Assembly (NCBI GenBank): GCA_003663535.1
Contig: QMUE01000006.1
Location: 1 to 14,306 of the forward strand
Length of the DNA stretch: 14,306 nucleotides
Direction of reading: 5' to 3'
Origin: Thermococci archaeon
GTDB lineage: Archaea > Methanobacteriota_B > Thermococci > Thermococcales > Thermococcaceae
This document shows, in pieces, positions 2 to 14,306 of this stretch; the first letter of the stretch is position 1; each line of letters begins with the position of its first letter. The translations under genes were made by a program, and so were the position numbers. The notes under the pieces were generated by a model. That model had not been told where the DNA came from and searched no databases. It saw only the letters and a list, made by a program, of their open reading frames with translations.

Positions 2-1174
2 CTTCATAGAGTTCATTCTTCTCATGGCGCACTAATTGTAGAAAACGGTCACCGTGGATATGCAACAGAAGAGGAACTTGAAAAGGTAAGTGCAGAGACT
101 ATTCTCAAATATCATGTCAAGGGAAGATCCTGTTATCTCTGTCCAATAGCCTGTACAAGATCAATATATATGGAAAGCAAAAAATATGGAGTGATAAAAG
201 GCAGAGGCCCAGAATACTACTCAATACAGTCTCTTACTTACAGGGCCGGTGGATGGGATACAGAAGCGGGTATATACCTGAACAAACTTTGTGACGCATA
301 CGGAATTGATGCAACAACATTACCATCCAACATTGCCTTTGCAATAGACCTATATGAAAATGGAATAATAACAAAAGAACAGGTTGGAGGGTTAGAACTC
401 ACTTGGGGGAACTTTGATGCTATGGAGGAGATCATCAAAAGTGTAGCCTACAGAAAGGGCAAGATCGGCGAACTCTTTGCAAAAAGTACAAAAGAACTAA
501 TAAAGGAATTTGGACCTGAGAGCGAGTGGTATGCATTAGAGGTGAAAGGACTAACAATGCCTTCAAACGATCCAAGAGCTGGAAACGTGTATAATATGAG
601 ATACGCTATCGCTACCAGAGGCGCTGATCACTTGAGAGTCTCCGTATTGAGCAGTGGAAGGTCTCTAAAATGGGATGAATTACCAGAGTACGAAGCGATG
701 AAAGTATTTGTTAACTTTGAGACATATGTAACGTTGGTAAACCTCTTCAACGTTTGTAATTGGGCCTATTCTTCTTACACATCTACACCTGAAATGGCAG
801 AAATAAAAGAAAAAGGAATGTTTAAGGTATACAACGCTGCTACTGGCCTTAACTTAACTCCGGAAGATTTTGCCAAAGCTGCACATAGAACCATTGTAAC
901 TGAAAGAGCTGAGAACGTTAGGTACGGTCTTCGCAGAGAACACGACTACCTCCCAAGAAGAGTTTTCGAAGAACCCTTGCCCGTAAATGAGAAAGGGGAT
1001 ACTAAGATCTTCCCACGTGAAAAATTTGAAAAACTGCTTGATGCATACTATGCGCTCAGAGGCCTTGATCCAAAAACAACAGTGCCCAAACCTTCAGTTC
1101 TGAGAGAGTTAGGACTCTCCAAAATTGAGGAAGATCTCAAACGAAGGGGCCTTATTAAGGAGGGAGAACAATGA
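2..1174 (+). CDS. Aldehyde:ferredoxin oxidoreductase (AOR) family protein, C-terminal part (5' end outside window)
   Basis: The reading frame is open from base 2, so an ATG at 170 is internal and the gene enters from the left. The visible 390 residues are the domain 2/3 part of a tungsten-bispyranopterin oxidoreductase, a family that oxidises aldehydes and passes electrons to ferredoxin. The first three [4Fe-4S] cysteines lie in CYLCPIAC (codons at 131, 140 and 152). The fourth is the Cys at 755-757. The first pterin loop is present as DAYGID, and ATRGADH matches the conserved active-site stretch. The second pterin loop, normally D-x-x-G-L-C, reads NLFNVC, so the usual Asp is Asn and the Gly is lost. 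Its substrate may therefore differ from the second AOR in this operon. Its stop overlaps the next start (ATGA), which implies translational coupling with the ferredoxin-like subunit. The family call is firm; the substrate is unknown. Confidence 0.93.
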   Translation, partial: LHRVHSSHGALIVENGHRGYATEEELEKVSAETILKYHVKGRSCYLCPIACTRSIYMESKKYGVIKGRGPEYYSIQSLTYRAGGWDTEAGIYLNKLCDAYGIDATTLPSNIAFAIDLYENGIITKEQVGGLELTWGNFDAMEEIIKSVAYRKGKIGELFAKSTKELIKEFGPESEWYALEVKGLTMPSNDPRAGNVYNMRYAIATRGADHLRVSVLSSGRSLKWDELPEYEAMKVFVNFETYVTLVNLFNVCNWAYSSYTSTPEMAEIKEKGMFKVYNAATGLNLTPEDFAKAAHRTIVTERAENVRYGLRREHDYLPRRVFEEPLPVNEKGDTKIFPREKFEKLLDAYYALRGLDPKTTVPKPSVLRELGLSKIEEDLKRRGLIKEGEQ

Positions 1175-1653
1175 AAGGAATGTTAGTTTTCTATCCGGAA
1201 AAATGCTCTGGATGTAATGTGTGCTCTACAGTATGCTCAGCATATCACTTAGGTGTTGTAAATCCTGACAGAAGTAGGATTAGAGTTCTAAGAAAAGAAC
1301 AAGAAAACTTAGATGTTGTAAATGTGTGCGTCCAGTGTGAGGAGAAATTCTGCATTCAAGCTTGTCCCTTTGGTGCACTATCTGTAAATCCAGAAACAGG
1401 AGCTACTGTTGTAGATCATGAGAAATGTACTCGTTGTAGACTCTGTATAAAAGCTTGCCCATACAACGGCATTATCCTGGACCCAATACTTAACCAGATC
1501 ACCATATGTGATTTATGTGATGGGGATCCCCAGTGCGCTAAGTACTGCCCTACAGAAGCTATCCAATTTGTGCACCCACTAGCCAGTAAAGTAGCCCACG
1601 AACAAAACAAAACAATAATCACACTGACGAAGGAAATTATTGAAGACCCTTGA
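1171..1653 (+). CDS. Ferredoxin-like electron-transfer subunit with four [4Fe-4S] motifs
   Basis: This 160-residue soluble protein has exactly 16 cysteines in four sets: 12/15/18/22, 53/56/61/65, 86/89/92/96 and 113/116/122/126. The last three sets end in the CP of classical ferredoxin motifs. This is the HycB/DmsB-like polyferredoxin fold that serves as the electron-transfer subunit of many molybdenum and tungsten enzymes, including some AOR-family complexes (a WOR5-type partner, or the BamC-like partner of the AOR-type benzoyl-CoA reductase BamB). It should carry electrons between an AOR and soluble ferredoxin or another carrier. The start codon overlaps the stop of the preceding AOR, and AAGGAGGGA lies just upstream, so it most likely pairs with that AOR. 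No signal peptide is seen, so a cytoplasmic location is inferred. Confidence 0.95.
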   Translation: MKGMLVFYPEKCSGCNVCSTVCSAYHLGVVNPDRSRIRVLRKEQENLDVVNVCVQCEEKFCIQACPFGALSVNPETGATVVDHEKCTRCRLCIKACPYNGIILDPILNQITICDLCDGDPQCAKYCPTEAIQFVHPLASKVAHEQNKTIITLTKEIIEDP

Positions 1654-1676: not shown

Positions 1677-1696
1677 CCATTAATGAGGTGAAGACA

Positions 1697-3499
1697 ATGG
1701 AATGGTTTGGATATACCGGGAAAATACTGAATGTTGATTTGAGTGAGAACAAACTCGAGATTTTAGAGGCTAACCCCAAAGTCTACGATAAATACATGGG
1801 TGGAGTTGGATACGCTGTCCATGTAATACACCAAGAACTTAAAAAAATTAAAAGTCCTGAAGATGAATCCAATATAATGGTTTTTGCTGTTGGACCTTTA
1901 ACTATCGACGGAATTCCAAATGGAGGAAGGGTTACCGTTGGTTCCATCTCCCCAGAGACTGGAGTATGGGGTGAAACTCATATTGGAACCAGATTTGCAA
2001 TAGAGATGAAAAAAGCAGGATTTGATGCGGTAATAGTGAGAGGAAAGGCTGAGAAGCCTGTATATCTCTACCTCAACGATGGAAAAGCAGAGATCAGAGA
2101 CGCAAGCAAATACTGGGGGAAAGATATACATGAAACTATAAACTCCCTCAGAAGCGATCTGAATGATCCAACCGTGAAGGCCCTAGCAATAGGACCTGCT
2201 GGAGAAAAGAAGGTCAAGATTTCTATCATAGCAAATGAAGAAGGATTCGGCGGAAGGTGTGGTCTTGGTGCAGTAATGGGATCCAAGAATCTTAAAGCTG
2301 TAGTAGCAAAAGGAACACAGAAAATACCTGTAGCTCATCCAGAAGAACTAAAGGAATTCCTTAAAGATCTTATGAAGAAACTAACAAAAGGTGGAACCGG
2401 ACTAAGAAACTATGGAAGTGCTGGAGGGGTAAAAGCATACCATGCGCTTGGAAACTTACCCATTAGAAACTTCCTTTGGGGCAAATGGGATGACGAAAAA
2501 GTCGCCAAAATCAGTGGAGACACTATGACAGAGAAATACCTCAAGAGTCCCTTTGCATGTACTCTGTGTCCAATTGCATGTAAGAGACTTGTAGAAGTGA
2601 AAAATGGAAAGTACTTTAAAGAATTCACCGGGCTAGGGCCGGAATATGAGACAGTGGGGCTTTTAGGATCAAACCTGTTAGTAGATGACTTAGAGGCAAT
2701 CATTAAGGCAAACAACATATGTGATAGACTAGGATTGGACACCATTTCAGCAGGAAATGTCATTGGATTCCTATTTGATGCAGCCGAAAAGGGAATAATC
2801 GATAAGAATATTGAAGGTCTAAACCTAGAGTGGGGAGACGCAGAAACAGTTCATAAATTGCTCGAAAAAATTGCATACAGAGAAGGTATTGGAGATATCC
2901 TAGCGGAAGGCGTTAGGAAGGCCGCTCAAAAGCTAGGCGCACCGGAACTCGCAGTGGAAATAAAAGGCCTAGAAATGCCTGCCCACGATGGTAGGGCCTA
3001 CTGGTCTCATGGGTTAAGCCATGCAACCATGAACCGTGGAGCTGATCATTTAGGATGGCCCCACATGCCATTCAAGGGAGTTTCTGTACCTGAACTTGGC
3101 ATAACTGCCTTTGAAAACAGGTATATAGACGGTGACGAATTGATCGAGACTGTTATAAAAATGCAAAACCTGATAATCTACGACTCGTTGATTCTCTGTA
3201 AGTATGCGTTTGCCGCCGGTTTGACTGTAACAGACATAATAAAACTCCTCTACTTTGTCACAGGAAAAGAATACACTCCCGAGAAACTGATGGAAATCGG
3301 AAACAGAATATGGAAGACACAGAGAAAGATAAACAATGAGTTGGGATTAACTTCCAAAGATGACAAACTACCTCCAAGGATGGCATCACCCCATGCTAAC
3401 AGAGATGATACCAAAGTACCGCCTGTAGAAAAGTGGCTACCAAGATACTACGAATTAAGAGGAATAAACCCGGATGGAACAGTAGATAAAATCGATTAG
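1697..3499 (+). CDS. Aldehyde:ferredoxin oxidoreductase (tungsten, complete)
   Basis: This complete 600-residue AOR-family enzyme is about the length of Pyrococcus furiosus AOR. It should contain a tungsten-bispyranopterin cofactor and one [4Fe-4S] cluster and oxidise an aldehyde to its acid (or run in reverse) with ferredoxin. Visible signatures are the N-terminal GYTGKILNVDLS, a glycine-rich first domain (GPLTIDGIPNGGR), cluster cysteines 288, 291 and 295 in CTLCPIAC, and GPEYET near 314-319. The first pterin loop is DRLGLD (343-348), HATMNRGADH is near 442-451, and the second loop is DSLILC with Asp496 and Cys501. The ATG at 1697 is chosen because GAGGTGA sits five bases before it; a GTG at 1688 falls inside that site. 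It lies 43 bases after the ferredoxin gene. Its pterin-binding residues are closer to consensus than those of the upstream AOR. Substrate preference cannot be read from sequence. Confidence 0.97.
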   Translation: MEWFGYTGKILNVDLSENKLEILEANPKVYDKYMGGVGYAVHVIHQELKKIKSPEDESNIMVFAVGPLTIDGIPNGGRVTVGSISPETGVWGETHIGTRFAIEMKKAGFDAVIVRGKAEKPVYLYLNDGKAEIRDASKYWGKDIHETINSLRSDLNDPTVKALAIGPAGEKKVKISIIANEEGFGGRCGLGAVMGSKNLKAVVAKGTQKIPVAHPEELKEFLKDLMKKLTKGGTGLRNYGSAGGVKAYHALGNLPIRNFLWGKWDDEKVAKISGDTMTEKYLKSPFACTLCPIACKRLVEVKNGKYFKEFTGLGPEYETVGLLGSNLLVDDLEAIIKANNICDRLGLDTISAGNVIGFLFDAAEKGIIDKNIEGLNLEWGDAETVHKLLEKIAYREGIGDILAEGVRKAAQKLGAPELAVEIKGLEMPAHDGRAYWSHGLSHATMNRGADHLGWPHMPFKGVSVPELGITAFENRYIDGDELIETVIKMQNLIIYDSLILCKYAFAAGLTVTDIIKLLYFVTGKEYTPEKLMEIGNRIWKTQRKINNELGLTSKDDKLPPRMASPHANRDDTKVPPVEKWLPRYYELRGINPDGTVDKID

Positions 3500-3520
3500 T
3501 CTTTCAATTTTTATTTATTT
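3500..3520 (+). terminator. T-rich intergenic run after the second AOR
   Basis: Directly after the AOR stop the plus strand reads as T-clusters (TTTCAATTTTTATTTATTT) up to the GGAG of the next gene. It could be a partial archaeal terminator. It could equally be an AT-rich spacer, since the next gene follows at once. Confidence 0.25.
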
Positions 3521-3533
3521 GGAGATGAGAGAA

Positions 3534-4295
3534 ATGGATATAAAAGGAATCTCAGACGAAATTGAATATCGAATTAAGCCTAAAGGAGCCCCTATAGCTT
3601 TCAAAATGGTTGAGAAGGACAAGATTCCCGAGTACAAAAATATTAAAAAAATGAGACGAAGGCTTACTTTATGTCAAGTACTGAAACTTGTAGCAATACA
3701 TGAAAAAACTTACAGAGTTGATAGCAAAAGCTTAGCTGGGTGTGTTTTTGGACCCTATATTCTTGGATTTGAAGAACTTCCTGAAAAATTAAAAGCAAAA
3801 TGGCTTTCAGGCAAGGAATATACCGAAGAAGGATATGAAAAGATGATACAAGATATCGTTCATCTTCCCCAGGGAAAATATCAAGAAGCTATTTTTGGAC
3901 CATTGAAAGATTTCCACGAACTCAAAATAGATCCTGACGGGATCATACTCATTGTCAACCCCACTCAGGCATATTTACTTCTGGGTGGCTACTATGACTC
4001 AGAGTTCAAAAAACCCTATTCTAATTTTAACGGTCACGCTGCATGTGAGATCGTGGCAACATTAAGTCTAGGAAATCACCCATGGCTAAACATCCCATGT
4101 GGAGGAGCAAGAGCCATGGCCCATGTCCAAGATGATGAAATATGGCTGGGAATGGACGTTGAGGAGCTAGAAAAAGCCCTGACAAGAATGAAAGAGATTG
4201 GAGCAAAGTATCCTCCTCAAGTATACCCACTACTCACAGCTGGCCCTCATCCACGTCATCCGTGGACAAAGCTACTTGGAAAAGATGAAGATTAA
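3534..4295 (+). CDS. DUF169 family protein
   Basis: The 253-residue product matches the DUF169 pattern. A first half carries LTLCQVLKLVA and LAGCVFGPYILGF. A second half carries NGHAACEIVATL and IPCGGARAMAHVQDDEIWLGM, followed by a helix (EELEKALTRM). Four cysteines (47, 70, 171, 189) lie in the most conserved-looking segments, which would suit metal or Fe-S binding, though that is only an inference. The biochemical role of DUF169 is not established; members occur in anaerobic archaea and bacteria. The ATG at 3534 has GGAGATGA five bases upstream. Earlier in-frame TTG (3519) and ATG (3525) overlap that site and are less likely. Its place between a tungsten oxidoreductase and a carbon-carbon lyase/synthase points to a dedicated part in the same pathway. 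No signal peptide or membrane span is visible. Confidence 0.85.
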   Translation: MDIKGISDEIEYRIKPKGAPIAFKMVEKDKIPEYKNIKKMRRRLTLCQVLKLVAIHEKTYRVDSKSLAGCVFGPYILGFEELPEKLKAKWLSGKEYTEEGYEKMIQDIVHLPQGKYQEAIFGPLKDFHELKIDPDGIILIVNPTQAYLLLGGYYDSEFKKPYSNFNGHAACEIVATLSLGNHPWLNIPCGGARAMAHVQDDEIWLGMDVEELEKALTRMKEIGAKYPPQVYPLLTAGPHPRHPWTKLLGKDED

Positions 4296-4318
4296 ATTGT
4301 ATTATGGAGGTGGTAAGG

Positions 4319-5560
4319 TTGGATTTACCAAACAAAGAAAAATGGGATACTGAAAGATATTGGTTAACTCCCTACAATTGGATTGATGAAGTGCGCTCCA
4401 AAATAAGCCCTCCAGAAAGAGTGGTACTCCATGATGCCACAATAAGAGAAGGACAACAGATGCCTGGAATGGCATTCAAGAGAGATGAGATAGTAATGAT
4501 TGCAAAGGCCCTAGATGAACTCGGCATAGATAGAATAGAACTAATCCCATTCCTATCTAAGGATGATGAAGAAGCCGCAAAGGAATTAGTTGATATGGGC
4601 CTTAATGCAAAACTTCTCTCTTTCGTAAGCTGGAAAAAGGAAGACACGGACTTGGCCCTAAAACTAGATTTAGAGGGCGTTGTTCTAGATTTCGTTGGAA
4701 ACCCATGGCAAGGAAAAGTATTCTGGAATTTAAAGCCAGAAGAGATAATCGAACGTGGAGTTAATGCTGCATTATATGCAAAAGATCATGGGCTTTACGT
4801 AGTTGCAATGCCTTGGGATGACTTCAAAGCCCCCTTAGAGTTTGTAGAGCAGAATGTGAAGACGTTAACAGAGGCCCATGTGGACAGAATTACTATATGT
4901 GATACCTATGGAGATGCCCTTCCATGGGCAATGGAATACGTTATGAAGCGCCTTAAGAAAGCAGCTGGCAAAACACCATTAGAGTTGCACATACACAATG
5001 ACTTTGGTCTAGCGACTGCTGGGGCCCTAGTTGCCGTAGCCTCTGGAGTAGAAGGTCTCCATGTGACCGTGAACGGTCTTGGAGAGAGAGTTGGCCTGTT
5101 ATCTCTTGAAGAGATAGCAGTTGCATTGGAGTTTCTACTAGGTGTAAAGACCAGCATAAACTTAGAAAAACTATACGAGGTCTCAAAAGTCGTCGAAGAA
5201 ATATCAAAAGTAAAAGTTGCAGTGAACAAGCCCATTGTTGGTGCAAACCAGTTCAAATACACAGCAGGGTGGATTACCTGGATGCACAGAAAAGCAAGAG
5301 AAGCAGGCAAACTTACAGGCATGCTACCATTTATGCCAGGGGCCGTAGGAAGACAATTGGAGTATGTGGTCTCAAAGGGAAGTGGGGCCTCATTTGTGGC
5401 AGAGAAACTAGCTGAGCTTGGAATTACTGTAGAAGACCCAGAAACAATGAAGAGAATAGCCCGCAAAGTCAAAGAGACCGCTAATACTCTAAAAAGCACT
5501 GTGCCTGATTCCTTGTTAATAAAAATAGCAAGAGAAATTTTAGAAAAGGAGGGAAGATAG
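4319..5560 (+). CDS. HMGL-like (DRE-TIM) enzyme: homocitrate synthase / HMG-CoA lyase / Re-citrate synthase relative
   Basis: This is a TIM-barrel metalloenzyme of the DRE-TIM superfamily, which makes or breaks C-C bonds in Claisen-type reactions of 2-oxoacids and acyl-CoAs. With the start at TTG 4319 (GGAGGTG six bases upstream), the signature DATIREGQQ gives catalytic Arg43 and metal ligand Glu44. HIHND gives His224 and His226 as the other metal ligands. NGLGERVG near 252-259 is the usual glycine-rich loop. An Arg-Glu pair, not Arg-Asp, is the homocitrate-synthase type. The remaining 140 residues are the subdomain/C-terminal part and show no LeuA-type regulatory domain. An ATG at 4304 would add five residues but has no Shine-Dalgarno of its own. 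It abuts the next gene. The actual substrates are unknown; homocitrate, citrate (Re-type) or a lyase reaction are all possible. Confidence 0.88.
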   Translation: MDLPNKEKWDTERYWLTPYNWIDEVRSKISPPERVVLHDATIREGQQMPGMAFKRDEIVMIAKALDELGIDRIELIPFLSKDDEEAAKELVDMGLNAKLLSFVSWKKEDTDLALKLDLEGVVLDFVGNPWQGKVFWNLKPEEIIERGVNAALYAKDHGLYVVAMPWDDFKAPLEFVEQNVKTLTEAHVDRITICDTYGDALPWAMEYVMKRLKKAAGKTPLELHIHNDFGLATAGALVAVASGVEGLHVTVNGLGERVGLLSLEEIAVALEFLLGVKTSINLEKLYEVSKVVEEISKVKVAVNKPIVGANQFKYTAGWITWMHRKAREAGKLTGMLPFMPGAVGRQLEYVVSKGSGASFVAEKLAELGITVEDPETMKRIARKVKETANTLKSTVPDSLLIKIAREILEKEGR

Positions 5561-6451
5561 ATGGAAGTTAAAATTCGTGAATTTGAAACTGCAGGAGTTA
5601 GATTAAGGATAGATATAATATCAAAGAGCCAAGAGGATTTAATTGGGGATCTAAGCTTTATTCAGTATAGATTAGGGGGGTTGAAGGAAGTCCAAGATAC
5701 AAAAGAACCGCAACCAGATATAATCTGGTATGCAGATACGGAAAAAATAGATATCAGCTACAACCCCAATGGAAAAGTTTTGATGCTATACGGACAACTG
5801 CCCCCGGGAGACATACAGAAGCTAATGCTCGCAATGCTCGTTAGGAAACTCCAAGAACATGGCATATACAACTTCCACTCCACGGCTGTAAATTACAAGG
5901 GAAAGAATATACTCTTCATGGCAGGAGAAGAAAACCATGGGAAGACTATGAGTTTGATTGAAACCATTAGAAGGGGTGGAGCAATTATCGGGACAGAAAG
6001 CGTCCTGGTTAATGAGAACCTAGAGGTAGTAGAAGGGAGCAGGGATGTTTTCATAACAAAGAGAGTGAAAGGTACAGAAAGATCTGACTTACCTCCTGCC
6101 ACTCACGGAGTTTGGAAATTCTTTGATGAACTTCCAGAGTGGAAGTGGGTAGAAGAATTCGGAAAGCTGGACTTAATAATAATTCCAGATATTGACGGCA
6201 ATTTTGACACATTTGTCACAAAACTAGATACATACGAGAAAATGTATCAAACTTTCATATGCCTAACAGAGACTTATTTCATGGCCCATTACATGCTTTC
6301 CAGCAAGAGGCCATTCCCACTCATAGACTACCAAGAACTAAGAGAAAGAAGATTGAAATTCGTTAAGAAGGTTGCGGATGAGCTTGATATATACCTCATC
6401 CGTGCAAAGAACCCCCAGATTATTATGGATGAGATTGAAAAAATTATTTGA
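5561..6451 (+). CDS. HPr kinase-like P-loop protein (putative)
   Basis: This 296-residue protein starts immediately after the preceding stop codon, with GGAGG in the end of that gene. Residues 104-129 read like the core of the HPr-kinase/PEP-carboxykinase-type P-loop fold: FHSTAVNYKGKNILFMAG leads into a Walker A motif GEENHGKT (122-129). RRGGAIIGTESVLV (137-150) stands where HprK-like proteins carry their second metal-binding acidic site. LDLIIIPDID (near 204-213) could act as a Walker B-like strand. There is no PTS gene nearby and archaea of this kind rarely have HPr, so another phosphoacceptor or a small-molecule role is likely. The acidic, asparagine-containing P-loop is atypical. Homology to HprK is inferred from motif order only. 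Its position between an HMGL enzyme and a cupin suggests control or cofactor work in the pathway. Confidence 0.65.
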   Translation: MEVKIREFETAGVRLRIDIISKSQEDLIGDLSFIQYRLGGLKEVQDTKEPQPDIIWYADTEKIDISYNPNGKVLMLYGQLPPGDIQKLMLAMLVRKLQEHGIYNFHSTAVNYKGKNILFMAGEENHGKTMSLIETIRRGGAIIGTESVLVNENLEVVEGSRDVFITKRVKGTERSDLPPATHGVWKFFDELPEWKWVEEFGKLDLIIIPDIDGNFDTFVTKLDTYEKMYQTFICLTETYFMAHYMLSSKRPFPLIDYQELRERRLKFVKKVADELDIYLIRAKNPQIIMDEIEKII

Positions 6452-6465
6452 AGGAGGTATGTGGT

Positions 6466-6867
6466 ATGGCAGCTATAAAAATTTGGGAAGTCCCTGGAGT
6501 AACCGTTCCAAAACCAAATGAAAGAGTGCTAAAAGTGCTCTTTTCCCCAAATGTAGGAAACAAGGAGCTTACACTACTGGTATCTCTAATATACCCACAC
6601 AGTACTACTGGACTTCACACCCACGATGTGGACGAATACATGTATATTGCCTCAGGCCACGGTGTAGCAATCTCTGAAGATGGAGAAGAAGTAGAAGTTC
6701 ACCCCGATATGCTAGTATACGCTCCAGCAGGAGTTAAGCATGAAATGAAAAATACCGGCGATGAGACACTTAAACTAATTTGTGTATACGTCCCAGCCCT
6801 TAAAGCATCGGGATATTTTGAAGAAGCAGAAAAGAAAGCTAAGGAATTCCTTAGCGGCAAAATTTGA
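6466..6867 (+). CDS. Cupin-domain protein
   Basis: This single-domain cupin of 133 residues has both classical motifs. Motif 1 reads GLHTHDVDEYMYIASGHG and gives metal ligands His51, His53 and Glu57. Motif 2 reads PAGVKHEMKN and gives His92. Such small beta-barrel proteins bind a divalent metal and act as isomerases, dioxygenases, epimerases or ligand sensors, so no reaction can be assigned. The ATG at 6466 has GGAGGT seven bases before it; a TTG at 6448 would overlap the preceding gene by four bases but has no suitable site. It is the last gene of the operon and is followed by a T-rich run. The sequence has no signal peptide. The cupin fold is certain; the substrate is open. Confidence 0.95.
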   Translation: MAAIKIWEVPGVTVPKPNERVLKVLFSPNVGNKELTLLVSLIYPHSTTGLHTHDVDEYMYIASGHGVAISEDGEEVEVHPDMLVYAPAGVKHEMKNTGDETLKLICVYVPALKASGYFEEAEKKAKEFLSGKI

Positions 6868-6870
6868 TCC

Positions 6871-6887
6871 TTTATTTTTTCTTTCTT
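6871..6887 (+). terminator. Poly-T terminator of the AOR/HMGL operon
   Basis: TTTATTTTTTCTTTCTT lies just downstream of the cupin stop on the plus strand. It sits in the short gap before the convergent malate dehydrogenase 3' end. No hairpin precedes it, which fits archaeal T-run termination. Confidence 0.5.
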
Positions 6888-7773
6888 AGTATCCAAGTTC
6901 TTTTAATCTTTCTTTTAGTAAGTTGACCGAATTTCTTAAGTTTTCCATATCTTGTGGATCAAGAGAATACTCGACAATCTTCTCCACACCATTTTTACCA
7001 ATGATAGCAGGAACACCTACTGAAACATCACTAAAGCCAAATTCCCCTTTTAATATTACACTAGCAGACATTTCTTCCTTAGTATTGTTTAGAACAGCGT
7101 TTATCATTCTATAAGCTGCTATTGCAGGCCCATAAAATGTGGCCCCTTTTCTTTTTATTACTTCAGCGGCAACAAATCTAACCTCAGATAGAACCTTATC
7201 CAACTCTAGAACATTTTCAGCATCTATGAGAGTCCTTGAAATAAACATGCTATCTCCATGCTCCCCAAGAATCCAAGCTTTATTTATGTTTTTAACCCCT
7301 AATTCACGAAGGGTTCTCTTAAGACGCATCGAATCCAGCATATTACCCATTCCAAAAACTTCATTCCTAGGCTTTCCACTCTCTTTCCACATTACGTAAG
7401 TCATTAGATCAACAGGATTTGTTATTACCAATATCTTACTTTTAGGAGAACTTTCCATTATTTTCCCCGCTACATCCTTGATAATACCTGCATTTTTCAT
7501 TGCCAAATCCAATCTACTCATGCCAGGCTTTCTCGCAGAGCCAGCGGTCACAACTACTATGTCACTTCCTTCAAGAATGGAATAGTCACTTCCCCCCACA
7601 ATTTCTGGATATTTTCCAAGGCCCGCTGCTGCATGGGCCAAGTCCATAGCTTCGCCGATTGCTAAATTCTCCATGATATCTACAAGCGCGATCTCCTCCA
7701 CATCTAATTGCTGGAGACACGTAAATGCTATTGTTGATCCAACTCTCCCCGCACCTACAAAGCCAATCTTCAT
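6886..7773 (-). CDS. mdh: Malate dehydrogenase (LDH-like family)
   Basis: This 295-residue NAD(P)-dependent dehydrogenase interconverts malate and oxaloacetate. The N-terminal Rossmann motif is GAGRVG (7-12), and an Asp at 32 ends beta-2, which favours NAD. Substrate residues are Arg81 in ARKPGMSR, Arg87, Asn119 in TNP, Asp147/Arg150 in LDSMR and catalytic His172 in GEHGD. Arg at 81, where lactate dehydrogenases have Gln, marks malate specificity. The overall sequence closely resembles the Archaeoglobus fulgidus enzyme as I remember it. The start MKIGFVG at 7773 has GAGGTGG a few bases upstream; a longer open frame to 7815 adds 14 residues that do not look like MDH. It is transcribed alone, convergent to the cupin and divergent from the UPF0261 gene. 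It could supply oxaloacetate to the HMGL enzyme if that one uses oxaloacetate. Confidence 0.96.
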   Translation of the reverse strand: MKIGFVGAGRVGSTIAFTCLQQLDVEEIALVDIMENLAIGEAMDLAHAAAGLGKYPEIVGGSDYSILEGSDIVVVTAGSARKPGMSRLDLAMKNAGIIKDVAGKIMESSPKSKILVITNPVDLMTYVMWKESGKPRNEVFGMGNMLDSMRLKRTLRELGVKNINKAWILGEHGDSMFISRTLIDAENVLELDKVLSEVRFVAAEVIKRKGATFYGPAIAAYRMINAVLNNTKEEMSASVILKGEFGFSDVSVGVPAIIGKNGVEKIVEYSLDPQDMENLRNSVNLLKERLKELGY

Positions 7774-7820
7774 TTTAACCACCTCACTTTGTTGTTTGAC
7801 AAAATTAAAATACAAAGAAA

Positions 7821-7838: not shown

Positions 7839-7884
7839 AATAATATATTTTTGATATTATTTTATTACAGAGGTGACAAATGTT

Positions 7885-9321
7885 ATGGAAATGAATAGGA
7901 CAACGGTATGTATCATGGGCACATTTGACACAAAAGGCATTGAAGCCAAATATCTGAAAGAGAAAATAGAACTTTATGGTGGAACACCTTTTCTAATTGA
8001 TATTTCTCTTAGGAAATACATTCACACTATAATAACCCCTGATGTCCCCAACCATATCGTGGCTCAGGAAGGAGGTAGCACAATTGAAGAAGTCTCTAAG
8101 AAAAATCGAAAAGAGGCCCAAGAAACCATGATTAAAGGCGCAATAAAGATACTGAGTAACCTCTTAACTGAAAAGAAGCTAGGAGGTATTATTGCATTTG
8201 GAGGGTCTGTAGGAAGTGGGATGGCCGTTAGGATATTAAAAACACTGCCCCTATTTGTTCCCAAATACTTGATAAGTACTTTACCCCAAGAAGTCTCTCC
8301 TATAATAGCCGGGAGTGACATTAAGGTATGGTGGTCTATTTCAGATATGGCAGGTGGAAATAAGATAAATAGCATAGAAGCCACTGTTCTTAACCAAATT
8401 GCAGCAGCCATTATGGGGGAGTTAAAGGCTAAGCCTGTAAATATGTCCAAAAAACCTATTATCGTAGCAACACAATTTGGAACTACTACCCCTCATTTGC
8501 TGATGAGCAAGGAAATCCTAGAAAACAAAGGTTTTGAAGTAATTTCTTTTCATGCGGTAGGTCTCTCAGGTGGTTATACTATGGAAGAATTCGTTAGAAG
8601 TGAAGAAAGAGTAGTCGGGGTTTATGATCTAACTACCCACGAAATAGTGGACGAAGTTGCTGGTGGCGTTTTAATAGCAAGTCATGAGGGAAAACTAAGG
8701 CTCAGAGCAGCCATTGAAAGAAAAATCCCCCACATAATACTCCCTGGTGGGCTTGATCAAGTTGTTTTTGGGCCTCCAGAGACCATTCCCAAAAAATATA
8801 AAAAACGCCTTTTTTATGAACACAGTAAAGGAATGGTAACTCTAATGCGATCAAATAAAAAAGAAATGTATCAATCTGGAAAACTAATTGCAGAACGAAT
8901 TAATGATGCCGAGAGTCCTGTGATAATCATAATACCAATACACGGATTCAGTACCTATGATAAAAACCCTCTTCTCTCAGATTCTTCCGGAGTGTATTGT
9001 CAAGTGATTAAAAATGGCAAACTAGAGATGACTGATATACCATGGTGGGATCCTTCTGCAGATATGATGTTATGGAAAGGAATACAAGAACATGTAGATT
9101 TAACAAACCCAAATGTCACTATCATACCAGTAGATGCCCATATTAATGATCCAGAGCTTGTACATTTTGTTATACAGATACTGATCAAAGCCATAAAAGG
9201 TACATGGAAAAGAGAAATCTTGAGTGACAATAAGTTATATGTAGGGGACCCATATCTCAAGTTTCGAACATTGATATTATACTATAACGACTATTTTAAG
9301 GTGGCGAATAATAAAAAATGA
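7885..9321 (+). CDS. Tm-1-like ATP-binding domain protein (UPF0261 family)
   Basis: The 478-residue product follows the UPF0261 pattern along its whole length. FDTKG is at 14-18 and the nucleotide-type loop GGSVGSG at 106-112. ISDMAGGNKIN follows near 152-162. The second half starts at PIIVATQFGTTTPHL (191-205) and has FHAVGLSGG, GVYDLTTHEIVDEVAGG (245-261), ILPGGLDQVVFG and MVTLMR. This is a two-domain protein related to the ATP-binding domain of plant Tm-1; its bacterial and archaeal role is unknown. About 25 residues (near 362-386) stand between the conserved Asp of FSTYD and DPSAD, where relatives I recall have a short link, so it may carry an insertion. The ATG at 7885 follows GAGGTG; a GTG at 7873 is inside that site. 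It is transcribed alone and divergent from mdh. Confidence 0.88.
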   Translation: MEMNRTTVCIMGTFDTKGIEAKYLKEKIELYGGTPFLIDISLRKYIHTIITPDVPNHIVAQEGGSTIEEVSKKNRKEAQETMIKGAIKILSNLLTEKKLGGIIAFGGSVGSGMAVRILKTLPLFVPKYLISTLPQEVSPIIAGSDIKVWWSISDMAGGNKINSIEATVLNQIAAAIMGELKAKPVNMSKKPIIVATQFGTTTPHLLMSKEILENKGFEVISFHAVGLSGGYTMEEFVRSEERVVGVYDLTTHEIVDEVAGGVLIASHEGKLRLRAAIERKIPHIILPGGLDQVVFGPPETIPKKYKKRLFYEHSKGMVTLMRSNKKEMYQSGKLIAERINDAESPVIIIIPIHGFSTYDKNPLLSDSSGVYCQVIKNGKLEMTDIPWWDPSADMMLWKGIQEHVDLTNPNVTIIPVDAHINDPELVHFVIQILIKAIKGTWKREILSDNKLYVGDPYLKFRTLILYYNDYFKVANNKK

Positions 9322-9384: not shown

Positions 9385-9434
9385 TGTAAAGTGTGTTATT
9401 AATAATTGCAGAATAGCACTTGGAGGTGCATGTA

Positions 9435-11258
9435 ATGGGATTGTTTTCTAAGAAGGAGGAAAAAAAGGAGGAATATGCCCTCGGTTCCAAAGTTATTGAA
9501 AGGTTCCTAGGGGACGACTATTTCCCAGTAAAATGGGGCGAAGATTGGGACAAAGAACTAAATGTAGAATGGGTAACTGTTTTGAAGGAACATGAAAAAG
9601 ATTTACACTGGTGGAGAAGTGATCTACACAACCCGCATCCAGCTTTGCCCATAATGGAGCTCTTTACTTGGTGGGATGCAAAACTCATAAAGAGTTGTGA
9701 ATATATGTACAGGAGATTTTGGTCTCCTACTGGAAGAGCATGGACTGGAAAAGTAGTTAATGGGTATGCCTATACTACCGTAATTCCACGTACTGACCCT
9801 GACGAGCTAAGAATTTCTGGAAAATACTTTATGAAGATATTACCAGTATATGCCGACATCTTCTTAGATCAATGGGAGAAGAGATATGTCCCCGAGATTA
9901 AGAACAATCTAGGGTTCATATTCAATTATCCATACGAAGAGGCTTCATTAGGAGAACTAATGTGGCTATTGGAAGAAATGATCGATATCTATGACAGAAA
10001 TTGGAAGCTTCACTGGATACTGAACTTTGCTCAATTTGCATCGTTCTTGTTCTTCAAAGAAACAGTTCGCCAAGTTATTGGAGATGAAAAGTATAACACT
10101 CCTGAGGTTCAGGACTTAATTGCTAGGATATTGGTGTCTACAGACGACGTTAACTGGGATTCTCTGAAGGTATTATATGATATTAAAGAAATGATTAAAA
10201 CCAACCCAACTGTAAGAGAACTATTTGAATCCGCAAAAACTGATGAAGAAGTTTGGGAAGAACTACAAAAACTAGAAGAAGGTAAAGAGATATATGAGAA
10301 GATAGCCCAATTCTTGAAAGAGTACGGAAGAAAATCACTGTATGTGTATGAGTATGACCTCCCAACCTGGGAAGAGTACCCGCCAACTGTTATTGCCCAA
10401 CTAAGAACCTACCTTTCAATGGACTACGACTTCTACGCAGACAAAGAATGGATTGCCACAGACCAACAAGAGGCCATTGAAAAATTAATGGAAATGATAC
10501 CAGAAGATAAGAAAGAAGTAGTAAAAGAGCAAATGGAGAGAGCTATAAAAATGGCACCATTAACACCCAACCATCACTTCTACATCGACCAGCAAACAAA
10601 CGCTGCTGCTAAATACGTGCTTAGAGAACTAGGAAGGAAGTTCGTAAAAGAAGGATTGCTAGAAGAGCCCTATGACATACTCTATCTAAAGTATGATGAG
10701 ATAAGAACCCTATTCGCAGATCCTGCAGAAATTGATGCCAAAGCCTTAGTAGAACAAAGAAAAGCCGAAAGAGAAAAAGCCAACAAACTTGTCCCTGCTC
10801 CCTATGTGGGAACAATTACAGAATGGTCAATCAAAGACGAGCCATACAAGCAAGGCCTCTGGGGATGGAGCTTTGAGAAATTACAAGAAGAGAAAGAGGC
10901 ATATGAAGCTGCAAAGAGCGGTAAAGTCAAATTCATAAAAGGTCTTGCGGCTGGGGCACCAAAAGTCGTAGAGGGAGTTGTTAAGGTAGTAGAAGGGCCG
11001 CATGAATTTGACAAAGTCGAAGAAGGAGATATTCTCGTCTGTGACATAACAAGCCCAGCATGGATTTCAGTATATCCAAAGGTAAAAGGAGTCATCACAA
11101 ACAGTGGAGGCCTTTCATCACACCCAGCAATAGTTTCAAGAGAATTCGGTATCCCATGTATAGTAGGCACAAGAATTGCTACCAAGATGCTCAAAGACGG
11201 CATTAAAGTGCGCTTGGATGGAGTAAAAGGTATAGCGACTGTTTTGGAAGAGGAATGA
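9435..11258 (+). CDS. PEP-utilising (phosphohistidine swivel) protein, phenylphosphate synthase alpha-like
   Basis: This 607-residue protein ends in the mobile phosphohistidine domain of PEP synthase/pyruvate phosphate dikinase. GDILVCDITSPAW leads to NSGGLSSHPAIVSREFGIPC, where His563 is the expected phosphoryl-carrying residue, and then DGVKGIATVLEE. It lacks both the ATP-grasp N-terminal domain and the C-terminal PEP/pyruvate TIM barrel. The first 470 residues instead form an aromatic-rich helical domain (HNPHPALPIMELFTWWDAKL, FWSPTGRAW, NGYAYTT). Length, layout and His position match the large subunit of Thauera phenylphosphate synthase, which transfers phosphate from His to phenol. The partner ATP-grasp subunit is not in this window. 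GGAGGTG lies six bases before ATG 9435; a TTG at 9420 overlaps it. The acceptor may be a phenol, an enol or an alcohol. The domain call is firm; the phenol role is only by resemblance. Confidence 0.85.
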   Translation: MGLFSKKEEKKEEYALGSKVIERFLGDDYFPVKWGEDWDKELNVEWVTVLKEHEKDLHWWRSDLHNPHPALPIMELFTWWDAKLIKSCEYMYRRFWSPTGRAWTGKVVNGYAYTTVIPRTDPDELRISGKYFMKILPVYADIFLDQWEKRYVPEIKNNLGFIFNYPYEEASLGELMWLLEEMIDIYDRNWKLHWILNFAQFASFLFFKETVRQVIGDEKYNTPEVQDLIARILVSTDDVNWDSLKVLYDIKEMIKTNPTVRELFESAKTDEEVWEELQKLEEGKEIYEKIAQFLKEYGRKSLYVYEYDLPTWEEYPPTVIAQLRTYLSMDYDFYADKEWIATDQQEAIEKLMEMIPEDKKEVVKEQMERAIKMAPLTPNHHFYIDQQTNAAAKYVLRELGRKFVKEGLLEEPYDILYLKYDEIRTLFADPAEIDAKALVEQRKAEREKANKLVPAPYVGTITEWSIKDEPYKQGLWGWSFEKLQEEKEAYEAAKSGKVKFIKGLAAGAPKVVEGVVKVVEGPHEFDKVEEGDILVCDITSPAWISVYPKVKGVITNSGGLSSHPAIVSREFGIPCIVGTRIATKMLKDGIKVRLDGVKGIATVLEEE

Positions 11259-11311: not shown

Positions 11312-11734
11312 ATGTATGCCAAAAGAGATAAAGAGCATATAGTAGCAAAACTAGAAAAAAATGAGGATCTTGTAGAAAAACTGACCCAATTGGCACAAGA
11401 AGAAAATATAAAAGCGGGCATGATAGTTTCAGGCATTGGAATGTTAAAAGATCCCGAGATAGGTTATTACACCGGCACAGGTTATGAGCAAAAGAAACTT
11501 GAAGGGGTTTATGAACTCGTCTCAATAACCGGGTACCTCCAAGAGACTACCCCAAGAGTCCATATTCACATAAGCATTGCTGATAAAAACAACAAAGTAT
11601 ATGGAGGACACTTGCTTAGTGGAAAATGCGACCCTTATGCAATAATAGCAGTTATTTCCTATGAAAAACTAAGCTTCAAGAGGGTTTATGTAGAAAAAGC
11701 AAAGCGAATGGAAACTGAGGTATATGAGGTCTAA
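11312..11734 (+). CDS. PPC/DUF296 domain protein
   Basis: This 140-residue protein covers one full PPC (plants and prokaryotes conserved, DUF296) domain. An N-terminal helical stretch (LVEKLTQLAQEENIKAGMIVSGIGML) is followed by GYYTGTGYEQKKLEGVYELVS. Then comes the hallmark PRVHIHISIAD and VYGGHLLSGKC, whose histidines bind metal in characterised structures. In plants the domain is joined to AT-hooks and oligomerises. The prokaryotic single-domain form has no settled function, although it is often labelled DNA-binding. No AT-hook is visible here. It starts with ATG at 11312 behind a G-rich site (AGGGGG). It follows the swivel-domain gene by 53 bases in the same direction, so a shared role or regulation is plausible. 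It ends before a short convergent gap. Confidence 0.9.
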   Translation: MYAKRDKEHIVAKLEKNEDLVEKLTQLAQEENIKAGMIVSGIGMLKDPEIGYYTGTGYEQKKLEGVYELVSITGYLQETTPRVHIHISIADKNNKVYGGHLLSGKCDPYAIIAVISYEKLSFKRVYVEKAKRMETEVYEV

Positions 11735-12275: not shown

Positions 12276-13310
12276 TCAGTCTTCCCATGACCATGATTGC
12301 GGAAATCCCGTTCTCTTGGACGGGAAGCATAGAGGTATCGCGAATCCCCAATGAACACCAGCATATGCAAGTACAAATGCTTGCATTAAGTAGTAAGTAT
12401 CTTCCGGACTTGTGGGAGGCCAGATATGCTTTGTTATTGCAATACTCACAAGAACTGCAATTATTTGGATTATGATAACTCCGATGAAACCTACAATTGC
12501 TCCCAACGTAGGCGGCTTTATCTTTCTCCACGGCCATCCTTCGAATATTACGAAGACACTCCAGTTAAAGCTACATCCTGCTCCGAACCATATTAGGAAA
12601 TAAAGGGAGTAACCACTTGTCAGGGACGCATAAGGAGCATCCAGCGAGAAATTAAAATGGCCCAGCAACGATGCGATTCCAACTGCCAAGAACACCACTG
12701 CCATGTTTATGACCCAGAATGCTATTCCTCCCTCATATCCTTTCATATCCTTACTCCAGTATGCTATAATTCCCGAGCCTAGGAGCCATTGTGTTGGAAT
12801 AAACCACCACGCAGGCATGAGACCTGGCTTTGGGAGAGCTATTATGGTAATTAGAACTAGGGAATACCAGAGCATTAAATCCAGCACTGCCTTTTTAGGA
12901 GCAGGCGTCTCTCCCCATAGGTGGAAGGAAAAATCTGTGACTACCACCCAGAAGAACAGACCTGCCAGTATCGGGAATCCATAGGTTTGAAGGTCGACCA
13001 GCTTGCTTGCTAGATACCAGCATACTACACCCAATACCCATGAAACACCGAGGGTTGCAATTCCACGGCTCCACCAGTTTTCAACTTTGTTAAAGGGCCA
13101 ATACCCCCACACAACGAATGCAAAGACCCACCATAAAGCCCATAGATACGTTCCAACAATATCAAGCCATTCTGCCCCACATATGGAAACTCTAGTGAAT
13201 ATTAAGTGCCCAATCCACCAATTTAAAACGGAGGCTATGATAACGGCCAACATTACAGGCCAATGATAACCCCATTTCTGCTCCTCTTTCACTTCCTCAG
13301 GCGTTCTCAT
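12276..13310 (-). CDS. Tryptophan-rich multi-pass membrane protein, unknown family
   Basis: The 344-residue product has about ten hydrophobic segments separated by short charged loops, so it is an integral membrane protein. Tryptophan is remarkably common: I count about 30 (near 9 percent), many in WW pairs near segment ends, such as NWWIGH, ALWWVFAF, ENWWSRG and PAWWFIP. The tail is hydrophilic (PSKRTGFPQSWSWED). I do not recognise the family and see no ATPase, Fe-S or heme-binding motif. One Cys-containing segment (WFGAGCSFNW) and several membrane His (GHLIF, FHLWG, VHWGF) may line a pathway. It could be a transporter or channel for a substrate or product of the neighbouring enzymes. The start is ATG 13310, directly after AAGGTG; GTG 13313 is an alternative. 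It lies downstream of the VOC gene and upstream of DUF6506. Confidence 0.85.
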   Translation of the reverse strand: MRTPEEVKEEQKWGYHWPVMLAVIIASVLNWWIGHLIFTRVSICGAEWLDIVGTYLWALWWVFAFVVWGYWPFNKVENWWSRGIATLGVSWVLGVVCWYLASKLVDLQTYGFPILAGLFFWVVVTDFSFHLWGETPAPKKAVLDLMLWYSLVLITIIALPKPGLMPAWWFIPTQWLLGSGIIAYWSKDMKGYEGGIAFWVINMAVVFLAVGIASLLGHFNFSLDAPYASLTSGYSLYFLIWFGAGCSFNWSVFVIFEGWPWRKIKPPTLGAIVGFIGVIIIQIIAVLVSIAITKHIWPPTSPEDTYYLMQAFVLAYAGVHWGFAIPLCFPSKRTGFPQSWSWED

Positions 13311-13327
13311 CACCTTCTAAACATTCT

Positions 13328-13348
13328 CAAATTTAAAAAAAGAAACTT
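13328..13348 (-). promoter_or_regulatory. T-run / TATA-like element before the membrane-protein gene
   Basis: On the minus strand the 48-base gap after the VOC gene holds TTTCTTTTTTTAAATTTGAG. It can be read as a T-run terminator of the E1/VOC part or as a TATA-like box about 25-30 bases upstream of the membrane-protein start. The position and length fit either reading, so the operon may have an internal boundary here. Confidence 0.35.
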
Positions 13349-13358
13349 TGACCTTGCG

Positions 13359-13906: not shown

Positions 13907-14306
13907 TCAAAGGATCTCCCTAACAGCCTTCTCAATCTTCTCAGTGCTTGGTATCCACTCACTCTCAAGAGCAGGGCTGAAGGGAACAGGTGTTGCTGGT
14001 GGTGTCACTATCTTTACAGGAGCTTTTAAGCTATCAAAGGCCTTATTAACAGCTAAAGCCGCTACATCCGTGGCAAAGCCACACCTTGGATATCCCTCAT
14101 CAACCACAACAAGCTTTCCAGTCTTCTTTATGGAATTTATGATAGTGTCCACATCCAGTGGAATTATAGTCCTCGGATCAACAACCTCAACACTTATGCC
14201 GTCTTTCTCAAGCTTCTCTGCCACTTCTAAGGATTTGTGAACCATTGCTGCAGTTGCAACAATCGTAACATCTTTTCCTTCCCTCTTCACGTCCGCTTCC
14301 CCTAAG
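13907..14306 (-). CDS. 2-oxoacid (pyruvate/acetoin-type) dehydrogenase E1 component, beta subunit, C-terminal part
   Basis: The minus-strand frame is open to the window edge, so the gene is 5'-truncated; a GTG at 14290 is internal to LGEADVKREGKDVTIV. The 132 visible residues are the transketolase C-terminal domain of a ThDP-dependent E1 beta subunit. VDPRTIIPLD is the family's conserved loop, followed by VVVDEGYPRCGFATDVAALA and the closing PVPFSPALESEWIPSTEKIEKAVREI. With its alpha subunit it would decarboxylate a 2-oxoacid or cleave acetoin and pass the acyl group to a lipoyl E2 or another acceptor. The alpha subunit probably lies upstream, outside the window. It heads the visible part of an operon with the VOC, membrane and DUF6506 genes. 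The substrate is unknown; no E2/E3 gene is visible. Confidence 0.9.
   Translation of the reverse strand, partial: LGEADVKREGKDVTIVATAAMVHKSLEVAEKLEKDGISVEVVDPRTIIPLDVDTIINSIKKTGKLVVVDEGYPRCGFATDVAALAVNKAFDSLKAPVKIVTPPATPVPFSPALESEWIPSTEKIEKAVREIL

Follow-up and report, generated by a model that had tools for sequence, protein, structure and literature searches.

What joins two tungsten aldehyde:ferredoxin oxidoreductases (AORs), a polyferredoxin, a DUF169 protein, a DRE-TIM (HMGL-like) protein, a P-loop protein and a small cupin in one row of genes? This question is raised by contig C6 of a Thermococci archaeon (GenBank QMUE01000006.1), the whole of which (14,306 bases) forms the window analyzed here and which belongs to an assembly of 300 contigs (1.65 Mb, 78% complete). 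The original prediction saw seven same-strand genes of a pathway with no described counterpart, in which the HMGL-like enzyme would form or cleave a branched acid and the AORs would interconvert the resulting aldehyde and acid. Based on the present data, we assign a probability of about 0.5 to the reading that these genes belong to a catabolic module in which a hydroxylated and perhaps aromatic compound is first phosphorylated and then oxidized by a tungsten- or molybdenum-dependent enzyme. The gene content, gene order, conservation and domain architecture of this module were observed as such, and the activities assigned to its enzymes are predicted from these. The seven genes follow each other in the order AOR1, polyferredoxin, AOR2, DUF169, HMGL, P-loop protein and cupin with gaps of −4, 34, 19, 8, 0 and −4 bases, all on the plus strand (Table 1). 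All seven are real, but just five of them lie between 1688 and 6867: the AOR1 C-terminus and the ferredoxin gene (1171-1653) precede the region originally delimited, and the start of AOR2 then placed at 1697 is a later in-frame start of a longer gene that begins at 1688. The operon is thus a real unit but a partial one, in that PEPut (the presumed substrate-binding and swivel part of a dikinase), the UPF0261 protein, an ATP-grasp protein and a PF04199 cyclase were left out. It is these four that accompany the P-loop protein and molybdenum or tungsten oxidoreductases from phylum to phylum.

Conservation of the gene cluster within the genus

The P-loop protein was found in 5 of 13 genomes of the genus, including the genome of the window itself, with identities of 92-97% in the four relatives. 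It was found in none of 24 other genomes of the family (the family relatives searched had genomes of 1.2-2.4 Mb) and in none of 24 more distant ones. The HMGL protein at an identity of at least 93% is confined to the same five genomes, the UPF0261 protein is present in exactly these five, and so is the cyclase at an identity of at least 90%, weaker cyclase matches being found in other genomes of the genus. It should be noted here that three of the eight module-free genomes of the genus are incomplete (61, 79 and 82%). In the fetched stretches of the carriers the order from AOR1 to the PCC-domain gene is identical (stretch L108 stops inside PEPut), and in each of the three relatives with a long enough stretch the PCC gene comes after PEPut. 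Since five genomes of the genus share this order and another archaeal phylum has parts of it, the grouping is not due to chance, and the possibility left by the original prediction that the order is unique to this strain is excluded. Indeed, the genes form a conserved, co-oriented set, as predicted, which was matched to no characterized pathway in this analysis. The module is patchily distributed and is therefore probably horizontally mobile.

The relatives also show what precedes the window. In two of them (G009 and G012) AOR1 is preceded by genes for an acetamidase/formamidase (PF03069), a DUF1097 protein, an ATP-grasp protein (PF01326, about 349 residues), a ThiS/MoaD protein and the PF04199 cyclase. 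In the genome of the window, contig C194 carries the ATP-grasp gene (cut; L186:3-938), the ThiS/MoaD gene, the cyclase gene and the first 428 residues of AOR1. The end of C194 and AOR1 of the window (up to about 538) share an overlap of 123 residues or more, in which the proteins are 97.6% identical, and the two contigs were left unmerged. Because of this overlap, C194 is very probably the upstream neighbor of the window, from a slightly different strain, and the unmerged overlap suggests a strain mixture in the assembly.

When the window was compared with the more distant three of the relatives (stretches L107-L109), identities of 92-95% were obtained for AOR1, the ferredoxin, the HMGL protein, the P-loop protein and the cupin, 88-89% for AOR2, 87-89% for PEPut, 82% for DUF169, and 76-79% for the malate dehydrogenase, the UPF0261 protein and the PCC protein. 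The lower conservation between species of the last three relative to the genes from AOR to cupin, together with the distribution of the genes over two strands and several likely transcription units, is what would be expected of a loose metabolic island, in which an AOR-cupin operon, a UPF0261-PEPut operon and an acetoin dehydrogenase operon are neighbors without a common pathway. We consider such an island quite improbable, because P-loop protein, PEPut, cyclase and molybdenum or tungsten oxidoreductase are associated in Chloroflexota too, as they are in Bathyarchaeia, where the genes are spread over separate contigs.

A presumed two-component dikinase

The upstream genes supply the second half of what appears to be a dikinase, the parts of which are found on two polypeptides, a PPDK_N protein (an open reading frame of 349 residues in L107) and PEPut (612 residues). 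Residues 252-609 of PEPut align with residues 530-866 of rifampin phosphotransferase (RPH; 5fbs, E 1.7e-28), that is, with part of its rifampin-binding domain and with the swivel domain, whereas matches to PEP synthases (8a8e, 9dae, 2ols) are confined to the swivel part (479-606). The substrate-binding part of PEPut is homologous to that of RPH and not to the TIM barrel of PEP synthase; residues 1-251 had no match among solved structures. The swivel motif T/SxxGGxxxH reads TNSGGLSSH in PEPut (560-568) and is present in 114 of the 120 homologues listed. Among named proteins, PEPut is closest to a 'PEP-utilizing enzyme' from Thermococcus sp. MV5, with which it shares 90% identity. According to PMC12167813, the dikinases HpeHI (71.1 and 40.6 kDa), CreHI and PpsAB have their ATP-grasp and swivel/substrate parts on two polypeptides and act on 4-hydroxyacetophenone/acetovanillone, 4-cresol and phenol, respectively; their swivel motif is T/SxxGGxxxH, with Ser before the His in PpsA and CreH. 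PEPut and the ATP-grasp protein match this layout of a two-component small-molecule dikinase, and phosphotransfer by the pair is presumed from homology.

Recurrence in Chloroflexota

Parts of the module were also observed in bacteria. The profile of the P-loop family gave 24 matches in 301 Chloroflexota genomes, and 12 of these were strong (E <= 1e-120), the 12 weak and partial ones having been set aside before counting. PEPut (33-39% identity, tblastn) is located 5' of the P-loop gene on the same strand in all 12 strong genomes, the gap being 27-1083 bases in 11 of them; in L157 it measures 3004 bases and holds a regulator gene and a PPDK-like gene. Downstream of the P-loop gene, the FAD and molybdenum cofactor (MoCo) genes of a molybdenum hydroxylase are each present in 12 of 12. 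In the 12 stretches, of which several are truncated, there are also genes for a PPDK-like protein of about 706 residues (9 stretches), the cyclase (7), a PF09370 protein (6, three of them short matches), UPF0261 (4) and DUF1097 (2). Within stretch L158, the PPDK-like protein (15015-17135, 706 residues) has ATP-grasp and swivel domains and no other Pfam domain. Genes for UPF0261 and PF09370, a PEP-hydrolase-like TIM barrel, are adjacent to each other beside the dikinase in L157, L165, L177 and L178.

PEPut itself was found in 39 of the 301 genomes (E <= 1e-40), in 25 of them at an identity of at least 36%, and all 12 P-loop genomes are among these 25. Under independence this co-occurrence has a p-value of about 6e-15 (4e-12 with all 39), which is just indicative since the 36% line was set after the list was known and the genomes are related. 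From the 13 genomes with a close PEPut in which the P-loop protein was not found, seven loci were fetched. Four of these contain PEPut, PPDK_N (34-36%), the cyclase (41-46%), a molybdenum hydroxylase and a gene of the fumarylacetoacetate hydrolase family; with a fifth, which lacks the cyclase, PPDK_N and the molybdenum hydroxylase are present in five. One of the other two has a molybdenum hydroxylase and a PPDK-like protein, and the last is a short stretch with PEPut as the sole query gene.

Dispersed parts in Bathyarchaeia and other signs of linkage

One bathyarchaeal genome (G295) gave the sole strong match to the P-loop protein among 398 genomes of its phylum, 20 other matches, weak, partial and in longer frames, having been dropped. 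It is also the only one of 256 genomes of its class with an HMGL protein at E <= 1e-90. On one contig HMGL (46%) comes after the C-terminus of an AOR on the same strand, with PEPut (48%) converging. On a second contig the cyclase (61%) and the P-loop gene (41%) are divergent neighbors, a dihydrolipoamide dehydrogenase gene follows the cyclase, and the start of an AOR (45 residues matched) lies at the contig end. DUF169 was not found in this genome. Beside the lipoamide dehydrogenase-cyclase pair lie an SDR gene and an open reading frame that by eye is nicotinamidase/isochorismatase-like (L155, 5650-7236).

Equal sizes of source contigs in the homologue lists provide a further hint that the genes lie on shared contigs. 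Such sizes were seen for HMGL and the P-loop protein (7693), for HMGL and PEPut (23022), and for the P-loop protein and PEPut (8004, 8743, 14609, 52394 and 419624); for one more size match of the latter pair (3774) the sources differ.

The P-loop protein

No Pfam or NCBIfam model matched the P-loop protein at 1e-3. The profile of its family matches the ATP-dependent PEP carboxykinase 1j3b (E 4e-4) at residues 64-128, about 65 residues up to the P-loop, and PF01293 is precomputed on 6 of the 120 homologues listed. The pattern GE.N.GK[ST] is found in 108 of 111 near-full-length homologues, and the AlphaFold2 model has a pLDDT of 91.6. We also take the protein to be similar to HPr kinase, presumably over the same fold, and the label PEPCK/HprK-like fits it better than the HprK-like label it was first given. 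A role as a regulatory kinase of the PEPut residue two positions before the His was considered, and it is not supported as a general role: this residue is Ser in the window (GGLSSH), Val or Ala in 8 and Thr in 4 of the 12 P-loop-positive loci of Chloroflexota.

The HMGL-like protein and DUF169

The HMGL-like protein retains the motifs REGQQ and HIHND. Where 2-isopropylmalate and homocitrate synthases carry H-x-S/A-G-I/V-H, it reads KYTAGWIT (alignment to 6ktq and 3rmj). The H-x-[SA]-G-I-H segment supplies the catalytic His of LeuA-type synthases, and the protein, which lacks it, is therefore classified here as a DRE-TIM relative and not as a LeuA-type synthase. It scores under every NCBIfam cut-off (25 of 27 matches listed), the best score being 299.6 bits where 517 are needed. 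In a tree of 78 sequences, the query, 26 homologues, two copies from the genus and the G295 protein form a clade of 30 (local support 0.94). Just 2 of the 120 homologues listed keep the His motif by pattern match, so its loss extends beyond this clade. A scan of genomes with the HMGL alignment yielded at least 80 loci, all of them 29-37% identical and belonging to the wider LeuA/homocitrate-type family, from which five outgroups of the tree were taken; the P-loop profile matched in 0 of 20 genomes behind these loci. In Thermoplasmatota 0 of 194 genomes, a set with no positive control, had an HMGL protein at E <= 1e-90, and homologue P0019 of the clade, obtained by protein search, carries the name Thermoplasmatota. 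A possible alternative identity, suggested by the nearby malate dehydrogenase gene, is that of a Re-citrate synthase.

These data bear directly on the chemistry originally proposed, in which a branched 2-hydroxy acid is the product or the substrate of HMGL and AOR converts the resulting aldehyde and acid into one another. The PF00682 domain, the HxHND metal motif and the position of an AOR gene 5' of HMGL on the same strand, directly so in G295 and with DUF169 in between in Thermococcus, are in line with such a scheme. It is nevertheless very improbable, because the clade is devoid of the His motif found in LeuA and homocitrate synthases and the protein reaches none of the NCBIfam cut-offs among the matches listed; moreover, HMGL had no match in the fetched Chloroflexota stretches (whole genomes were not searched for it), and the scheme leaves the dikinase out of account. 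For the first and third of these reasons HMGL is unlikely to be the defining step of the pathway. The co-occurrence of DUF169, which had been named as a point to check, does not extend to the core shared across phyla (0 of 12 P-loop genomes in Chloroflexota and 0 of 1 in Bathyarchaeia). Its distribution, with DUF169 in the context of the module in five genomes of the genus only, rules it out as a core part. A DUF169 homologue (46%) in a module-free genome of the genus (G010; L182, 8776-9519) is not near any gene of the module and lies beside genes that by eye are of the sugar-phosphate/nucleotidyltransferase type. The original prediction was right that the locus has the look of an undescribed pathway, and it is unlikely that DUF169 and an HMGL condensation stand at its center.

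Proposed pathway and its substrate

We propose the following sequence of steps from homology. In the first step, the ATP-grasp protein and PEPut would act as a two-component dikinase: ATP would phosphorylate His568 of PEPut, and the swivel domain would pass the beta-phosphate to the hydroxyl of a small molecule that is probably aromatic or heteroaromatic, with release of AMP and Pi. In the second step, AOR1 and AOR2 would oxidize an aldehyde-level group, the electrons being relayed by the polyferredoxin; the place of these tungsten enzymes would be taken by a molybdenum hydroxylase in Chloroflexota. More speculatively, in a third step, the cyclase might open a ring by hydrolysis and the HMGL-like protein might make or break a C-C bond, after which the fragments may enter the neighboring 2-oxoacid/acetoin-dehydrogenase-like complex. 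The PEPCK/HprK-like protein could be a second phosphotransfer enzyme, acting on a phosphorylated intermediate, or a regulator, and UPF0261 would have a role in the same route. The common denominator of the loci is the dikinase, the P-loop protein, the cyclase, UPF0261 and a tungsten or molybdenum oxidoreductase, though not every locus has them all.

An aromatic substrate is likely because the known two-component dikinases act on phenolics and because the nearest solved relatives of the cyclase are isatin hydrolases. The latter (E 7e-13) also lead to a variant in which an N-heterocycle or cyclic amide is degraded: the molybdenum or tungsten enzyme would oxidize the ring or an aldehyde, the dikinase would activate a lactim or enol hydroxyl, the isatin-hydrolase-like cyclase would open the ring, and an FmdA-type amidase would release ammonia from a small amide. 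Consistent with this are the acetamidase/formamidase gene 5' of DUF1097 in two relatives, the MoCo subunit of Chloroflexota, which scores best against models of 4-hydroxybenzoyl-CoA reductase and xanthine dehydrogenase (all under the cut-off), and a weak likeness of the cupin to ureidoglycine aminohydrolase (E 1.9e-7, far under the cut-off). However, FmdA had no match in the fetched stretches of Chloroflexota or G295, the cyclase is just a distant relative of isatin hydrolase, and the cupin match is weak, so we regard this variant as unlikely.

Several observations weigh against phosphorylation of an aromatic compound by the module. No complete known route via a phosphorylated phenol was recognized; a UbiD-like phenylphosphate carboxylase and a CoA ligase were absent among the Pfam-scanned open reading frames, a search aimed at either not having been made. 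The ATP-grasp protein scores higher against the ATP-grasp domains of PEP synthases (302 bits) than against that of RPH (187 bits), and the families PF04199, cupin and AOR each cover a broad range of functions. The P-loop protein was not found in the 13 of 25 Chloroflexota genomes mentioned above. Among the Chloroflexota stretches fetched, none had a match to HMGL or DUF169, and one had a weak match to the cupin (24%, L158). In G295 the pieces of the module are spread over three contigs, and its UPF0261 gene (about 40%, C8) has no other module gene matched in the surrounding 20 kb.

Other neighbors point to carbohydrates. Near the module, Chloroflexota stretches L158 and L163 contain a transketolase N/C pair, a transaldolase, a gluconate-5-dehydrogenase-like SDR and an alcohol dehydrogenase similar to inosose and threonine dehydrogenases, and in G295 the P-loop gene has an SDR gene (27% identical to the SDR of L158) about 3.4 kb away. 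In a pathway of this type the dikinase would phosphorylate a sugar-like alcohol and the molybdenum or tungsten enzymes would oxidize an aldose to the acid. In the stretches of Thermococcus and G295 neither transaldolase nor the zinc-dependent alcohol dehydrogenase was matched, the transketolase matches are distant E1 subunits (25-30%), and the characterized two-component dikinases act on phenolics (PMC12167813), which makes a carbohydrate or polyol substrate distinctly improbable. The carbohydrate and N-heterocycle readings each retain a small probability beside the phosphorylation of an aromatic hydroxyl, given the sugar-type genes of Chloroflexota, the SDR of G295 and the amidase gene that precedes the module in two genomes of Thermococcus-like archaea.

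We tentatively extend the proposal to an undescribed phosphorylation-first degradation route common to hyperthermophilic Thermococcus-like archaea, bathyarchaea and Chloroflexota, a claim that is more doubtful than that for the module itself. In such a route the dikinase would tag the substrate, a tungsten enzyme or molybdenum hydroxylase would oxidize it, and the PEPCK/HprK-like, UPF0261 and, in archaea, non-canonical DRE-TIM enzymes would complete the degradation. Because HMGL and DUF169, and nearly also the cupin, are unmatched in the Chloroflexota stretches, this claim concerns the shared core only. Were it true, UPF0261 and the P-loop family would gain a metabolic role, none being described in the literature on UPF0261 or on Tm-1-like/PEP hydrolase proteins as searched at listing level. 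The gene cluster itself was not found described in the literature on its families and on dikinases, searched mostly at listing level. The proposal places a UPF0261/Tm-1-like protein, a PEPCK/HprK-like protein and a His-less DRE-TIM clade in one testable module around a dikinase type with known chemistry in the breakdown of lignin and phenol. The exchange of AOR in archaea for a molybdenum hydroxylase in bacteria offers a handle on the substrate class, and if the substrate of the dikinase were found, the pathway could be traced by assay.

Genes of the window and their surroundings

Table 1. Coordinates and sequence evidence for the genes of the 14,306-base window.
Feature	Position	Strand	Evidence
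AOR1, tungsten aldehyde:ferredoxin oxidoreductase, C-terminal part	2..1174	+	PF01314 E 1.3e-78; CYLCPIAC
Polyferredoxin	1171..1653	+	Fer4 (Pfam); 16 Cys in four C-x2-C-x2-5-C-x3-C groups
AOR2, full-length tungsten aldehyde:ferredoxin oxidoreductase	1688..3499	+	PF02730 + PF01314
DUF169 protein	3519..4295	+	PF02596 E 4.9e-28
DRE-TIM (HMGL-like) protein	4304..5560	+	PF00682 E 1.1e-48
PEPCK/HprK-like P-loop protein (GEENHGKT)	5561..6451	+	no Pfam/NCBIfam match
Small cupin	6448..6867	+	PF07883 (Cupin_2) E 3.5e-17
Lactate/malate dehydrogenase family protein	6886..7815	-	PF00056/PF02866
UPF0261 (Tm-1-like) protein	7873..9321	+	PF06792 + PF23189
PEPut, substrate-binding and phosphohistidine swivel part of presumed dikinase	9420..11258	+	PF00391; TNSGGLSSH, His 568
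PCC-domain protein	11312..11734	+	PF03479
2-oxoacid/acetoin dehydrogenase E1-beta-like subunit, C-terminus	13907..14305	-	PF02780; open to contig end

The AOR1 frame is open from base 2 and truncated by the contig start (the listed open reading frame starts at 170); the full-length copy in relative L106 has 639 residues. Both AFOR domains and the CxxCxxxC cluster motif are present in AOR2, the closest solved structure of which is 1aor (E 1.4e-112). For AOR1 both domains are seen only in the full-length copies of the relatives, the window part containing the cluster motif. The polyferredoxin is expected from its Cys groups to bind four 4Fe-4S clusters, and its best NCBIfam match is a PadI-type model (103 bits, cut-off 700). 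For the cupin the closest solved structure reaches only E 1.6e-5.

Beyond the cupin, 18 bases separate it from the convergent dehydrogenase gene, which is followed by a divergent gap of 57 bases and by UPF0261, PEPut and the PCC gene on the plus strand. The dehydrogenase scores 300 bits against the malate dehydrogenase model PRK06223 (cut-off 283) and has the same position in four relatives; it lies between the two halves of the module, and its membership of the pathway is uncertain. Solved relatives of the UPF0261 protein are 9mpy and Tm-1 (3wry). At the end of the window, the E1-beta fragment is the start of an adjoining E1b-E1a operon, both genes of which are complete in L106. In the relatives, E1-beta and E1-alpha are on one strand, and a lipoyl protein (by eye), E2, Lin0512 and an NAD-kinase-like protein are on the opposite strand, together a predicted acetoin-dehydrogenase-like set with, we presume, a likeness to AcoX. 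Between DUF6506 and E1-beta, the minus strand (12276-13871) encodes a membrane-like protein of 345 residues with no Pfam match and a VOC/glyoxalase-like protein, neither of which gave a tblastn match in the fetched stretches of four relatives. A few kilobases 5' of the module, G012 has another AOR-like gene (615 residues, by eye) with a small MoaD-like gene (L172, 10028-12164). Large helicase-like and DNA-methylase/restriction-like genes 5' of the module in two relatives (L170, 5041-13167; L172, 1-6622) appear by eye to form a variable defense-type region.

Relation to known systems

As compared with HpeHI, CreHI and PpsAB, the presumed dikinase likewise consists of a PF01326 protein of about 349 residues and a separate swivel protein of 612 residues with Ser before the motif His, a likeness to PpsA, CreH and HpeH that was judged from their published description and not from their sequences. 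It differs in its occurrence in an archaeal hyperthermophile and in the tungsten or molybdenum oxidoreductases, UPF0261, P-loop protein and cyclase encoded alongside. Like the AORs of P. furiosus (1aor) and Aromatoleum (8c0z), AOR2 is a full-length enzyme with CxxCxxxC and a polyferredoxin partner, whereas here two paralogues, about 36% identical, are found in one operon. The HMGL clade shares the TIM-barrel domain, the R-E-G-Q-Q start motif and HxHND with 2-isopropylmalate, homocitrate and citramalate synthases, but x-x-S/A-G-W-I replaces their His motif and the E-D-A-x-R region is altered. The P-loop protein has about 295 residues against about 530 in ATP-PEPCK, the match spanning about 65 of them. 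Plant Tm-1-like proteins are described as combining UPF0261 and a TIM-barrel domain in one chain. The UPF0261 protein of the window has both UPF0261 domains, as in Tm-1, but lacks the fused PF09370 TIM barrel, for which there was no match in the fetched Thermococcus stretches.

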